Shown here one piece after another: positions 53,512 to 56,669 of a stretch of 64,000 nt of DNA. Source of the stretch: Marivirga aurantiaca (GTDB lineage: Bacteria > Bacteroidota > Bacteroidia > Cytophagales > Cyclobacteriaceae); the NCBI RefSeq assembly GCF_016679925.1, contig NZ_JAEQBW010000001.1:558001-622000 (forward strand), written 5' to 3'. Below the pieces are notes generated by a model. That model saw only the letters and a list, made by a program, of their open reading frames with translations. It had not been told where the DNA came from and did no database searches. The position numbers were made by a program, and so were the translations under genes. The number at the start of each line of letters is the position of its first letter. Position 1 is the stretch's first letter.

Positions 53512-53590
53512 GTACTGAAGTTTCGCCCCAAAATAATGTGCTTTAAAAATGAAAATTTGGAAAAATAATTCACTAATGAATCCTCCATCA

Positions 53591-53697
53591 ATGCTATTAA
53601 GTTAAGCTCTATATTAAACCTCAACCTTTTATCCTTCTCTCCCGATTGGTCGGGACAAGCTGAGGGGAGAAGGAGGTTTGTCTTAACTTAATAGCAT
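53591..53697. repeat. MITE-like element, copy 2 (107 bp)
   Basis: The same 16-bp terminal inverted repeats (ATGCTATTAAGTTAAG at 53591-53606, complement at 53682-53697) enclose an imperfect palindrome. Reverse-complemented, the element aligns along its whole length with copy 1 (46980-47065). It carries about 20 extra bases forming an inner hairpin, CCCGATTGGTCGGG (53641-53654). It may also serve as the transcript end of the kinase gene, which stops 80 nt upstream. Confidence 0.8.
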
Positions 53698-53772
53698 TGG
53701 CTCCTCAAAAGAGAATTTAAGGCGTTGTATTTTTCAATATGCGAAACTTCTGTTAAGTACATTAAATTTCCA

Positions 53773-53780
53773 TATATTTG
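53773..53780 (+). promoter_or_regulatory. -7 element of the TPP-riboswitch operon
   Basis: TATATTTG matches TAnnTTTG exactly. Transcription would begin near 53787, at the first bases of the riboswitch. The -33 element is weak. Confidence 0.6.
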
Positions 53781-53787
53781 AACTATA

Positions 53788-53870
53788 AATGCACGGGGTG
53801 CTGAGGTTTTTGCCAAAGCTGAGATAATACCCGAAACCTGATTTGGATAATGCCAACGTAGGGATGCAGT
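53788..53870 (+). promoter_or_regulatory. TPP riboswitch (THI element)
   Basis: The conserved segments occur in the right order and spacing: GGGGTGC (53795-53801), GCTGAGATAATACCC (53818-53832), ACCTGATTTGGATAATGCCA (53836-53855) and CGTAGGGA (53857-53864). TGCA at 53790-53793 and 53865-53868 can close helix P1. TPP riboswitches bind thiamine diphosphate and lower expression when it is abundant. A terminator 20 nt downstream supplies the off state, so control by premature termination is expected. The controlled genes are the four that follow (53952-56669). Confidence 0.95.
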
Positions 53871-53890
53871 ATTAAAATATTCCATTTTGT

Positions 53891-53929
53891 ACTCCATTAC
53901 CTTGGGCATCCCAATTGATGGAGTTTTTT
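53891..53929 (+). terminator. Riboswitch-controlled leader terminator
   Basis: ACTCCAT (53891-53897) pairs with ATGGAGT (53918-53924), and TTGGG (53902-53906) with CCCAA (53910-53914); six T residues follow (53924-53929). It lies between the TPP aptamer and the ATG at 53952. Confidence 0.85.
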
Positions 53930-53951
53930 GTTTTAAAGCAGATCAATAAAA

Positions 53952-54674
53952 ATGGAATTAGATAAAACAACTTCTGAATTAATCCCACAAGCACAGGCCA
54001 ATTGGCAAGACCGACCGGAATGGTTTTTTAATAGAGAACATACCGATACCTACGAGCAATGGTATGAAGGGAGGTATAAACGAGCCGAAGTTTGGCAAAA
54101 GAAAGTAATGGAAGATCTTGTGTCTAAAGATACCAGGATTGAGCAATTACTGGAATTTGGATGTGGTACTGCACGCTTTACCAGGTGGTGGAAAGAAATA
54201 GGAATTGAAGCCACAGGCGGTGATATCTCACCTCTTATGTTATCACAGGCAGTTCATTTATTTGATGGGGATTTGGTAATGGCGGATTCACACAATATGC
54301 CCTTTAAAGATCATACTTTTGATGCATTGGCCTTTATTACCACTTTTGAATATTATAAAGATCCTGTGAAAGTCATCAGGGAAGCTGCCAGGGTAGCAAA
54401 ATATGGTATAGCCATGGGGATGATGAACAGAAATTCTCCCAAAGTAGTACGCAGGCGTATTCAGCAAATATTCGGTAAGAACCCATTTTACATTACTGCG
54501 ACCTTTTATACCCCCAAAAAATTAATAGAAATTATTAAAGTAGCCCTGGAGGGCAGGGACTATACCATTGAATGGTCATGTACAGGTCTTCCAAAGTGGT
54601 TCCCCGTTCAGAAATGGAGTGTGCCTTATGGTGATTTCTTCGGGTTGTATATTCAATTAAATGATATTGAGTGA
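53952..54674 (+). CDS. Class I SAM-dependent methyltransferase in a TPP-riboswitch operon
   Basis: A 240-residue Rossmann-fold methyltransferase, first gene of the operon. Motif I is LLEFGCGTARFTRWW (GCGT at 70-73), the acidic residue that holds SAM ribose is in GGDIS, and motif IV region reads ADSHNMPFKDHTFDALAFIT. The family is UbiE/methyltransf_11-like, whose members methylate small molecules on C, N or O atoms. The C-terminal part (about 160-235) is specific and may select the substrate. It overlaps the next gene by 1 nt (TGATG). Thiamine synthesis has no standard methyltransferase of this kind, so the substrate is the main question. Confidence 0.92.
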   Translation: MELDKTTSELIPQAQANWQDRPEWFFNREHTDTYEQWYEGRYKRAEVWQKKVMEDLVSKDTRIEQLLEFGCGTARFTRWWKEIGIEATGGDISPLMLSQAVHLFDGDLVMADSHNMPFKDHTFDALAFITTFEYYKDPVKVIREAARVAKYGIAMGMMNRNSPKVVRRRIQQIFGKNPFYITATFYTPKKLIEIIKVALEGRDYTIEWSCTGLPKWFPVQKWSVPYGDFFGLYIQLNDIE

Positions 54675-55729
54675 TGAAAGAAGTACTTGGAAAAATAGAT
54701 CACCATTTATTTGAGGAAATAATACATAAAAATTGCGGAAGTCCACGAGCTGAAGTTAGTGTGGGAGCTCAATTTGGAGTAGATGTATCCGTAGTGGATT
54801 TGCCGGGAGGCATGGTAATGGCAGCCACCAGCGATCCTTTATCCTTGATTCCATCTCTTGGATTGGAAGAATCAGCCTGGCTTTCTGTGCATTTGATGGC
54901 CAATGATATGGCTACCACTGGTTTTGCACCTATGTATGCACAATTTGTTCTTAATCTTCCGGCCACTTTTTCCAAAGCTGATTTTGAGGTTTATTGGAAT
55001 TATATTCATGTGTTTTGTGCAGATATGGGTACAGCCATTACGGGAGGGCATACCGGATTTATTGAAGGACAAAATTCCACCATAGCAGGAGGAGGTACTT
55101 TTTCTACCATAGCTCCTAAATCACAAATTCTCACCTCAATATTGGCCAGACCCGGCAATACCATCCTGGTGACTAAACAATGTGCTACTTCCTCAGCGGC
55201 CATACTGGCTATGAGCTTTCCGGAAACAGTAAAAAATAAGCTGGGAAACGAAAGCTTTCAAAAAGCATCAGAATTGTTTTATGAAACTTCTTCCTTAAAA
55301 GAAGCCTTGGTGGCAGTGGGCACGGAGCATCAACATACGGACATAACTGCCATGCATGATGTGACCGAGGGAGGCGTGCTGGGTGCCATTTATGAAATGG
55401 CGAGTGCTTCCGGCTGTGGAGCATTGATTCACAATAACAAGCTGCCAATGGGGCATACACAGAATGAAGTTTGCTCATTTTTTGAGCTAGATCCTCGTCA
55501 TTGTGTGGGCGCAGGCTCTATGATAATCACCTGTGAAAAGGGGACCGATTCAGCTGTAATAGCACGATTGAAAAAAGAAGGGATTGCCTGCTCAGCTGTG
55601 GGGGAGATTCAGGAAAAGGAGCAAGGAATACATATAATAGAGGATGGTGAGCAAAAAAAATTAATCTATATGGAAGAAGACCCTTATTGGGCAGCCTTTT
55701 TCAAAGCGTATAAAGAGGGATGGAAATAA
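54674..55729 (+). CDS. AIR synthase-related ATPase (ThiL/HypE/PurM superfamily)
   Basis: A 351-residue protein of the PurM-like superfamily that includes ThiL (thiamine-monophosphate kinase), HypE, SelD and PurM, all of which transfer phosphate from ATP. The N-terminal half shows FGVDVSVVDL and ATSDPLSLIP in the position of the ThiL/HypE DDAAV and TDxL motifs, SVHLMANDMATTGFAPMYAQ, and TAITGGHTGFIEGQ. The C-terminal half has DITAMHDVTEGGVLGAIYEM, the typical C-domain opening, and GAGSMIITCEKG. It lacks the C-terminal Cys of HypE (ends FFKAYKEGWK). TPP control and the adjacent ThiE-like gene make a ThiL-like job plausible. ATG 54674 is chosen over an upstream GTG. Confidence 0.85.
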   Translation: MKEVLGKIDHHLFEEIIHKNCGSPRAEVSVGAQFGVDVSVVDLPGGMVMAATSDPLSLIPSLGLEESAWLSVHLMANDMATTGFAPMYAQFVLNLPATFSKADFEVYWNYIHVFCADMGTAITGGHTGFIEGQNSTIAGGGTFSTIAPKSQILTSILARPGNTILVTKQCATSSAAILAMSFPETVKNKLGNESFQKASELFYETSSLKEALVAVGTEHQHTDITAMHDVTEGGVLGAIYEMASASGCGALIHNNKLPMGHTQNEVCSFFELDPRHCVGAGSMIITCEKGTDSAVIARLKKEGIACSAVGEIQEKEQGIHIIEDGEQKKLIYMEEDPYWAAFFKAYKEGWK

Positions 55730-56370
55730 TGGCTGCAAAAAGAAACATATCTTCTGGAGTATATTTGGTTATAGATCCTTCCATGGAGGAAGGGCTTTTA
55801 TTGAAAAAATTGAAAGCAGTATTACCGGAGGAAATTGCTGCTGTTCAAATCTGGGATAATTTCCATAAAGGGCAAAATATCCAGGATTTAATTGAAAAAA
55901 TATGTGCTATTTGCTATTTACATAATATCCCGGTGCTCATCAATAATCAATGGGAATTGTTGCTCAATACTTCTCTGGATGGTGTTCATTTTGATGTGAT
56001 TCCTGAGAATTACAATGAAATCAAGCAAACAATAAAGAGGGAATTTATCTCGGGAGTAACCATTAATAATGATTTAACAGTAGTGAAACTGGCAGAAATG
56101 TATCAGATGGATTACCTCTCTTTTTGCTCAGTTTTTCCATCTGTTACTAGTAATAGCTGTGAACTCGTCAGTTTTGATACTATTAAGGCGACAAGGAAAC
56201 TTACTTCCATGCCTGTATTTTTAGCAGGGGGAATCCGGCCTGATAATATCCACCAATTAAAAGACCTTCCTTTTGAGGGCGTTGCTGTAGTCTCAGGCAT
56301 TATGAGTAGTACTGATCCTGCAGGAGCCGTAAAAAATTATATTACACAATTAAAAGCAAATAAGAAATGA
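55729..56370 (+). CDS. ThiE/TenI-like protein with altered active site
   Basis: A 213-residue TIM-barrel protein related to thiamine phosphate synthase and TenI. The fold marks are VYLVIDPS (strand 1), VQIWDNF, VLINNQWELLL, LDGVHFDV, SGVTINN, FCSVFPSVTS, FLAGGIRPDN and GVAVVSGIMSS. At key positions it differs from ThiE: the VQxRxK motif is VQIWDN, IINDR is LINNQ, DGVHLGQ is DGVHFDV, and the PTxTK motif is PSVTSN. The residues that hold the pyrimidine diphosphate are therefore mostly gone. It may act on another substrate, be a tautomerase-like protein, or bind ligand without turnover. Start ATG 55729 overlaps the preceding stop (TAATG); ATG 55720 is possible. Confidence 0.85.
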   Translation: MAAKRNISSGVYLVIDPSMEEGLLLKKLKAVLPEEIAAVQIWDNFHKGQNIQDLIEKICAICYLHNIPVLINNQWELLLNTSLDGVHFDVIPENYNEIKQTIKREFISGVTINNDLTVVKLAEMYQMDYLSFCSVFPSVTSNSCELVSFDTIKATRKLTSMPVFLAGGIRPDNIHQLKDLPFEGVAVVSGIMSSTDPAGAVKNYITQLKANKK

Positions 56371-56669
56371 GACTATCAACTATTAATAAATTATGTTGTC
56401 CTTTCGATAAAGCAGATTTGGCACTTACCACCATTACTCAGGATGTGAATGAAAATATATTGGAGGGTTTTTTAACATGTAGTAAATGCAATAGGATTTA
56501 TCCTTTTGTGAAAGGAATACCTATCATGAGTCCGGATGAATACAGGGAGTTTAAACTTGAAAAGCCATTGTTGGATAAATGGGAATCCTACCTTAATGGT
56601 CAAACTGTTGAGAACTTTCGTTTGGTCTCAGGGGATAAAAATGGAACAGAAAACCAACTAAAGCAATAG
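56367..56669 (+). CDS. Trm112-like zinc-binding protein
   Basis: A 100-residue protein with the Trm112/YcaR pattern: LCCPFDKADLAL near the N-terminus, LTCSKCNRIYPFVKGIPIM in the middle, then a helical tail with DKWESYL. In other organisms Trm112 proteins bind to and stabilise methyltransferases. Here the first knuckle has adjacent Cys (C10, C11) instead of CxxC; the second is a normal CSKC. It overlaps the ThiE-like gene by 4 nt (ATGA). Because the operon begins with a methyltransferase, a partner role for that enzyme is a reasonable inference. Confidence 0.85.
   Translation: MRLSTINKLCCPFDKADLALTTITQDVNENILEGFLTCSKCNRIYPFVKGIPIMSPDEYREFKLEKPLLDKWESYLNGQTVENFRLVSGDKNGTENQLKQ

Follow-up and report, generated by a model that had tools for sequence, protein, structure and literature searches.

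Among the Bacteroidota, the closest described thiamine gene sets are the loci of Bacteroides thetaiotaomicron (thiSEGCHF-tenI, OMthi and pnuT-tnr3), which are controlled by thiamine pyrophosphate (TPP) riboswitches (PMC5613172). In the current study we describe a four-gene operon of Marivirga aurantiaca, located behind a TPP riboswitch in a stretch of 64,000 nucleotides (nt) that is hereafter called the window (GCF_016679925.1, NZ_JAEQBW010000001.1, positions 558,001-622,000, forward strand). The operon shares phylum and mode of control with the B. thetaiotaomicron loci, but the main text of that report mentions no methyltransferase and none of its named operons matches the present one. A 2007 metagenome riboswitch survey described TPP riboswitches before genes of unknown function, the genes of this operon not being named in its main text (PMC2211319). 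In a Baltic Sea metatranscriptome, Bacteroidetes were reported to express omr1 and pnuC uptake genes together with thiazole and vitamin B1 synthesis genes, and no synthesis of hydroxymethylpyrimidine (HMP) (PMC12442306), and the thiamine cluster was lost in auxotrophic Flavobacteriales among marine isolates (PMC12448291). No description of the operon was found among the matches listed in the open-licence PMC literature, and prior notice in subscription papers, preprints or regulon databases is possible. The four-gene operon is widespread, although it has apparently not been described; the gene set is new, its kind of control is a known one, and the label 'new pathway' depends on its substrate.

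Comparison across genomes strongly supports riboswitch control of the operon and its link to thiamine. On balance, we favour the explanation that it constitutes a TPP-repressed thiamine-acquisition module in Bacteroidota that are unable to make thiamine canonically, converting an imported thiamine-related compound to thiamine monophosphate (TMP) without the need for HMP diphosphate (HMP-PP). The features of the locus, in coordinates of the window, are as follows:

53784-53881 (+): TPP riboswitch aptamer (RF00059; cmscan 65.4 bits, gathering threshold 54.3)
53863-53898 (+): predicted antiterminator (in RNA folding, pairing between 53863-53875, the 3' strand of the aptamer, and 53886-53898)
53891-53929 (+): intrinsic terminator (hairpin 53891-53924, T-run 53924-53929)
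53952-54674 (+): class I S-adenosylmethionine-dependent methyltransferase (Pfam Methyltransf_11, 64.7 bits)
54674-55729 (+): AIRS-fold protein (PurM/ThiL/HypE/SelD superfamily), by sequence of a HypE-like branch (Pfam AIRS_C 76.3 bits, AIRS 34.2 bits)
55720-56370 (+): ThiE-like TIM barrel, with an alternative ATG at 55729 (Pfam TMP-TENI, 103 bits)
56367-56669 (+): Trm112-like zinc-knuckle protein, probable methyltransferase partner (Pfam Trm112p, 28 bits, cut-off 22)

Riboswitch control and distribution of the operon

The original prediction, made from the letters of the window, had proposed a TPP aptamer followed by a terminator with a T-run, and then four tightly packed genes. The covariance scan placed the aptamer above threshold (E 1.4e-10), RF00059 being the only Rfam family to reach it within the window. 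The terminator hairpin proved to be strong (-15.5 to -16 kcal/mol, z -4.4) and was equalled by none of 200 shuffles, while the small overlaps between the genes (1, 1 and 4 nt, the second using the second ATG) and the domain names at Pfam level were also confirmed. RNA folding pairs the terminator 5' arm with the aptamer 3' strand once the terminator 3' arm is withheld, and the leader is predicted to act as a switch with mutually exclusive terminator and antiterminator, tilted towards termination by TPP. A perfect 18-nt inverted repeat (53589-53699, arms 75 nt apart) immediately precedes the promoter region of the operon, and the core between its arms is present once in the window.

Related loci comprised the best 80 of 198 relatives from a species-genome scan and ten loci from the 296 genomes of the phylum that were searched. 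These 90 loci represent 89 distinct ones, as L060 is from the same genome as L025 (L027 and L048 differ); gene order, spacing and residue counts refer to 89 loci, and the neighbour and terminator surveys to 88, L027 being left out. Judged by record titles, the best 80 relatives belong to Bacteroidota of many genera, and the AIRS-type protein was found in 11 of the 296 genomes, that of M. aurantiaca included, hence its distribution is patchy. A TPP site was located directly upstream of the methyltransferase gene in all 90 loci (59.6 to 88.5 bits using our own model, built from 13 TPP sites, nine of them from operon loci). The expectation that related genomes would carry the same four genes behind a TPP riboswitch was therefore borne out, and no homologous operon lacking the riboswitch was encountered among them. 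Using Rfam's own model, the operon site exceeded the gathering threshold in 20 of 21 carrier genomes, the site of G069 scoring 47.8 bits. Of the 88 leaders, 73 could be parsed, and 29 of these contained a recognisable terminator, compared to 22 of 213 shuffled leaders; the share is a rough lower bound, since parsing failed for 15 leaders and over-long start calls shortened several.

The order methyltransferase-AIRS-ThiE-like-Trm112 is kept in 89 of the 90 loci, the exception being L088, where the contig edge is reached after the second gene; in the 88 complete distinct loci all four genes lie on the same strand and in the same order. Successive genes are separated by between a 60 nt overlap and a 30 nt gap in 71, 80 and 76 of 88 cases for the three junctions, start codons having been assigned mechanically. 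No further neighbour is widely shared (the next commonest cluster occurs in 11 of 88 loci), and genes for bacimethrin (bcm) were not among the widely shared neighbours in the 88 loci, although no search for bcm genes by name was performed. Two copies of the operon are present in Arenibacter sp. F26102 and in A. arenosicollis (L037/L038 and L040/L042). Within one genus, genome G012 possesses thiC, thiG and thiE and no operon, and G277 possesses the operon and none of these in full, as a swap would give. In a Christiangramia metagenome-assembled genome, a second TPP-like site (L092:10098-10189, minus strand, 48.4 bits using our own model) is situated close behind the operon on the opposite strand.

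Readings of the operon as a mobile or defence element were set aside. PADLOC returned a weak methyltransferase match (mad2, 27.3 bits) and nothing else, and none of the 12 IMG/VR stretches that match the methyltransferase peptide pattern encodes a relative. On plasmids, 97, 12, 70 and 1 records were related to the AIRS, methyltransferase, ThiE-like and Trm112 proteins, respectively, and all of these relatives are below 60% identity, so that none is a close copy; nine plasmid neighbourhoods were opened, one of which was without annotation.

The four proteins and their known relatives

The ThiE-like protein is most similar to ThiE of B. subtilis (PDB entries 2tps and 1g4x), with which it shares a TIM barrel as the nearest solved fold (template modelling score ~0.8, 24% identity). 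Its AlphaFold2 model has a mean predicted local distance difference test (pLDDT) score of 95.7, and the closest PDB chains are those of ThiE, followed by TenI. Nevertheless, it reached 101.8 bits against the 145.1 required by the thiE equivalog TIGR00693. Residue counts were based on 89 proteins, namely that of the window and those of 88 loci, using B. subtilis positions transferred via HMMER alignments, where we take R59, K61, D93 and D112 to be the HMP-PP/Mg residues and GGI and Ser to form the thiazole-phosphate site. Gln57 (in 89), Asn92 (in 88) and the phosphate end (GGI in 89, 89 and 88, and Ser192 in 89) are kept, whereas Arg59 is found in none and replaced by Trp in 87, Lys61 is found in none and replaced by Asn in 65, His in 22 and other residues in two, and Asp93 and Asp112 occur in four and none, respectively. 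Three true ThiEs from related genomes retain Arg59, Lys61, Asp93 and Asp112; K159 was left out as evidence because Lys is missing from this column in those ThiEs, too. In addition, two cysteines are invariant in all 89 proteins: in the model Cys136 directly follows strand 6 (132-135) and Cys147 is in the following loop, the one that carries T156, T158 and K159 in ThiE. By its residues, the protein is no usual TMP synthase. Thiaminases carry the pyrimidine on a catalytic Cys, and by analogy we hypothesise that a Cys-bound intermediate may be formed here. The thiazole tautomerase TenI (PDB 1yad and 3qh2) has the same fold, but is less similar to the ThiE-like protein than ThiE by both sequence and structure; TenI is no TMP synthase and works after ThiG, of which no full-length copy was found in carriers.

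The AIRS-fold protein falls below the NCBIfam cut-off for each family that it matched: 67.2 bits against 184.15 for ThiL (TIGR01379), 66.9 against 251.6 for HypE (TIGR02124), and 46.3 against 125 (TIGR00476) and 57.4 against 291 (NF010705) for SelD. An identity as HypE or SelD was rejected on these scores. It belongs to the same superfamily as ThiL, yet it lies far below the ThiL cut-off, and a true ThiL of 242-333 bits coexists in each of the 28 genomes tested. Outside the operon, the closest relatives that were found come from haloarchaea and are named 'AIR synthase family' proteins, with approximately 30% identity over 88-96%. A phylogenetic tree groups the operon proteins in a single clade (support 1.0), to which neither ThiL nor the archaeal proteins belong; the trees took in 15 and 13 operon proteins, the AIRS tree 13, and alignment A8 took in 61 of 68 picked locus proteins and the window protein. 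GKI...GVD and MHDxTEGG-like segments are common to the operon protein, HypE and the haloarchaeal proteins, and its sequence assigns it to the HypE-like branch and not to ThiL. HypE has a conserved Cys near its C-terminus, where none is conserved in the operon proteins. CblS, the alpha-ribazole kinase, may be a further AIRS relative. In all three Haloarcula plasmids opened, the AIRS relative adjoins two thiamine genes, one for a thiamine-binding protein and one for a substrate-binding protein of a thiamine ABC transporter. The original prediction had drawn on the roles of ThiE and ThiL, and the corresponding features are not shown by these two proteins.

The methyltransferase (METHYLTRANSFERASE) is the slowest-changing of the four proteins (mean column identity of 80% compared to 66, 56 and 49% for the others, across 11 proteins), suggesting that its substrate or its partner is demanding. 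Among solved structures, its profile comes closest to 1vlm (42 bits), which is an unspecified methyltransferase; the predicted model of the operon protein itself was poor (pLDDT 45.8) and was not used. The Trm112-like protein contains the Pfam Trm112p domain in all 11 members scanned, and Cys11, Asp14, Cys38 and Cys41 are present in all 89 proteins, with Cys10 in 88. It conforms to the zinc-knuckle motif [C/D]PX[C/D]...CX2C of Trm112 proteins (PMC5372719), and scored 58.6 against the 77 required by the archaeal Trm112 equivalog NF038101. The methyltransferase and Trm112 genes co-occur in 89 of the 89 loci that reach far enough, and this co-occurrence upholds the earlier suggestion that the Trm112-like protein is probably the partner of the methyltransferase. 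As in known Trm112-methyltransferase holoenzymes, a small zinc-knuckle protein is thus encoded with a class I methyltransferase, although the known complexes modify tRNA, rRNA or release factors. According to a 2017 review, nothing was known on the function of bacterial Trm112 orthologues (PMC5372719).

Thiamine genes and importers in carrier genomes

Thiamine genes were compared between 21 carrier genomes and seven non-carriers, the latter hand-picked near carriers. ThiC was detected in none of the carriers and one of the non-carriers, full-length ThiG in none and two (G273 and G012), a PF02581 protein of at least 150 bits, the level of canonical ThiE, in none and three, and full-length ThiM in none and two. 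ThiD was above the cut-off in one carrier (G250) and two non-carriers, a third non-carrier scoring 138.7 bits, below it. TPK was present in 12 carriers and two non-carriers, and ThiL in all genomes of both groups. The split in ThiE has a chance probability of ~0.01 (35/3276), uncorrected for kinship. The ThiG Pfam cut-off was passed in 13 of the 28 genomes, including nine carriers, but the matches of the latter are partial, with each stretch below 30 bits (one frame of G190 reaches 34 bits with its neighbours), and are taken as cross-matches; carrier G305 has a partial PF02110 match above the cut-off (27.4 bits), located in a 517-amino-acid frame. Since the control genome of Bacteroides ihuae was positive for ThiC, ThiG, ThiD and the ThiE and ThiM families, the absences in carriers are no blind spot of the search. 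Two Mucilaginibacter carriers (G301 and G302) encode a second ThiE-family protein of 122-124 bits, which in G302 lacks K61, D93 and D112 and is TenI-like in look. With regard to canonical genes elsewhere in these genomes, the original prediction had asked after both thiE and thiL: a canonical-scoring thiE is missing from carriers, while thiL is always present. In the 12 carriers with TPK, imported thiamine would not require ThiL, and the presence of ThiL there suggests that their TMP probably comes from elsewhere.

Other TPP sites were opened in 19 of the 21 carriers, including M. aurantiaca (G300 and G301 were left out). In 17 of these, a TonB receptor like that of M. aurantiaca (29 to 58% identity) lies directly behind such a site, and in the remaining two a PnuT homologue does so; with a transporter behind a TPP site in each of the 19, carriers look like thiamine importers. 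M. aurantiaca itself has three further TPP sites, of which a tandem pair (57.9 and 52.2 bits, the latter below the cut-off) precedes the TonB receptor and the third (55.0 bits) precedes PnuT and a NadR-like kinase. TPK was not found in this genome, and the NadR-like kinase may be a thiamine kinase that feeds ThiL. In the former region (L005:10246-13865, C36) the tandem sites and the TonB receptor are followed by a DUF6687 protein (400 bits), possibly on one transcript, and in the latter (L006:10348-11468, C36) the kinase is a P-loop protein of the AAA_28 type. In an Arenibacter (L179:830-2420), a Chryseobacterium (L180:5965-7567) and a Mucilaginibacter (L182:3359-5088), a TPP-site region contains a PnuT homologue with an acyl-CoA-dehydrogenase-like protein behind it, the calls resting on weak Pfam matches in L179 (below cut-off) and L182 (above) and on inspection by eye in L180; this protein is a further candidate thiamine enzyme.

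Possible functions and their significance

The original prediction placed the operon in a branch of thiamine metabolism, perhaps salvage. Its tie to thiamine stands, the riboswitch being present in 90 of 90 loci, far more than chance would give, but the argument drawn from ThiE and ThiL does not. Salvage or an alternative supply is the likeliest role because the carriers lack the canonical pathway, and supply is likely rather than repair. Under the acquisition reading, low TPP would allow the leader to be read through and the four proteins to be made. The AIRS-fold enzyme would use ATP to phosphorylate or activate a thiamine-related vitamer imported by the TPP-regulated transporters, and the methyltransferase, activated by its Trm112-like partner, would methylate this vitamer, perhaps providing a leaving group or restoring a missing methyl group. 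The ThiE-like barrel, with its thiazole-phosphate end kept and its diphosphate/Mg end replaced by Trp, Asn and the two invariant Cys residues, would then complete TMP without HMP-PP, and canonical ThiL would make TPP from it, upon which the operon would be shut off.

Several points weigh against this proposal. A methyl group is not known to play any part in the salvage of thiamine. In the absence of ThiM, ThiG and (one carrier excepted) ThiD, a source of hydroxyethylthiazole phosphate or HMP phosphate is not evident, and ThiL is also retained by all seven non-carriers, which may reflect plain inheritance. The terminator was recognised in just 29 of the 73 parsed leaders. Among the 19 TPP sites linked to transporters, six remain under the gathering threshold, with 39-53 bits, and two further weak sites (L170 and L173; G171 and G151) have no transporter behind them. 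As to the relatives outside the operon, the three Haloarcula plasmids are so closely related that they may represent a single event, and the AIRS relatives in the Halobacterium, Haloferax and Acaryochloris records opened are without thiamine neighbours.

Among the alternatives, the substrates may be thiamine analogues that are damaged or act as antagonists (ring-opened, oxidised or demethylated), which the operon would repair or detoxify without providing net supply. Whole-molecule substrates would explain why genes for HMP and thiazole supply are not needed, and the phosphate end of the ThiE-like site is kept; repair would, however, presumably also be wanted when thiamine is plentiful, and TPP repression fits supply better; we regard this explanation as unlikely. 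Somewhat less probable still is a non-canonical de novo route, by which the operon and genes elsewhere would make thiamine from ordinary metabolites and carriers would be prototrophs. The absence of ThiC, full-length ThiG and ThiM and canonical-scoring ThiE from all 21 carriers, together with an operon kept over many genera, would be in keeping with such a route, and PurM, which has the AIRS fold, closes rings, so that ring formation is conceivable. Building and joining two heterocycles nonetheless seems more than three enzymes could accomplish, there is no other widely shared neighbour to assist them, and the transporter homologues behind TPP sites point to import. Moreover, in a study of leaf isolates the share with ThiC was 100% among thiamine prototrophs (n = 21) and 7% among auxotrophs (n = 14), as far as an unlabelled table row can be read (PMC9666465).

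We consider it improbable that the operon makes a product other than thiamine, for example a TPP-sparing one, and is merely expressed at low TPP. The altered residues of the ThiE-like enzyme would permit this, and a methyltransferase with Trm112 is not known to act on thiamine, but the ThiE-like scaffold, the archaeal AIRS relatives beside thiamine uptake genes and the want of a canonical-scoring ThiE in carriers all argue for thiamine. The Pfam names TMP-TENI and AIRS would point to an ordinary ThiE and ThiL accompanied by two unrelated hitchhiking genes. This reading, which we deem barely credible, was rejected on the equivalog scores, the lost residues (R59, K61 and D112 in none of 89 proteins) and the coexisting true ThiL, and the four genes occur together in every one of the 89 loci that reach far enough.

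The acquisition reading can be extended, tentatively and with considerable doubt, to a third way to TMP, in which a Cys-dependent, HMP-PP-free ThiE-like enzyme, with an AIRS-fold kinase or activase and a Trm112-dependent small-molecule methyltransferase, would replace ThiC, ThiG, ThiD and ThiE in many Bacteroidota and use a vitamer or precursor outside current B1 models. Genome-based forecasts of which organisms make or need B1 rest on ThiC, ThiG and ThiE, and by this measure all 21 carriers are plain auxotrophs. The bacterial Trm112-methyltransferase pair, for which the 2017 review knew no function (PMC5372719), gains a physiological setting, and the operon also offers a ThiE scaffold whose active site is altered. 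Should the operon indeed supply TMP from another compound, such forecasts would fail for many Bacteroidota of the environment, and a B1 vitamer that has gone unrecognised would be in circulation.

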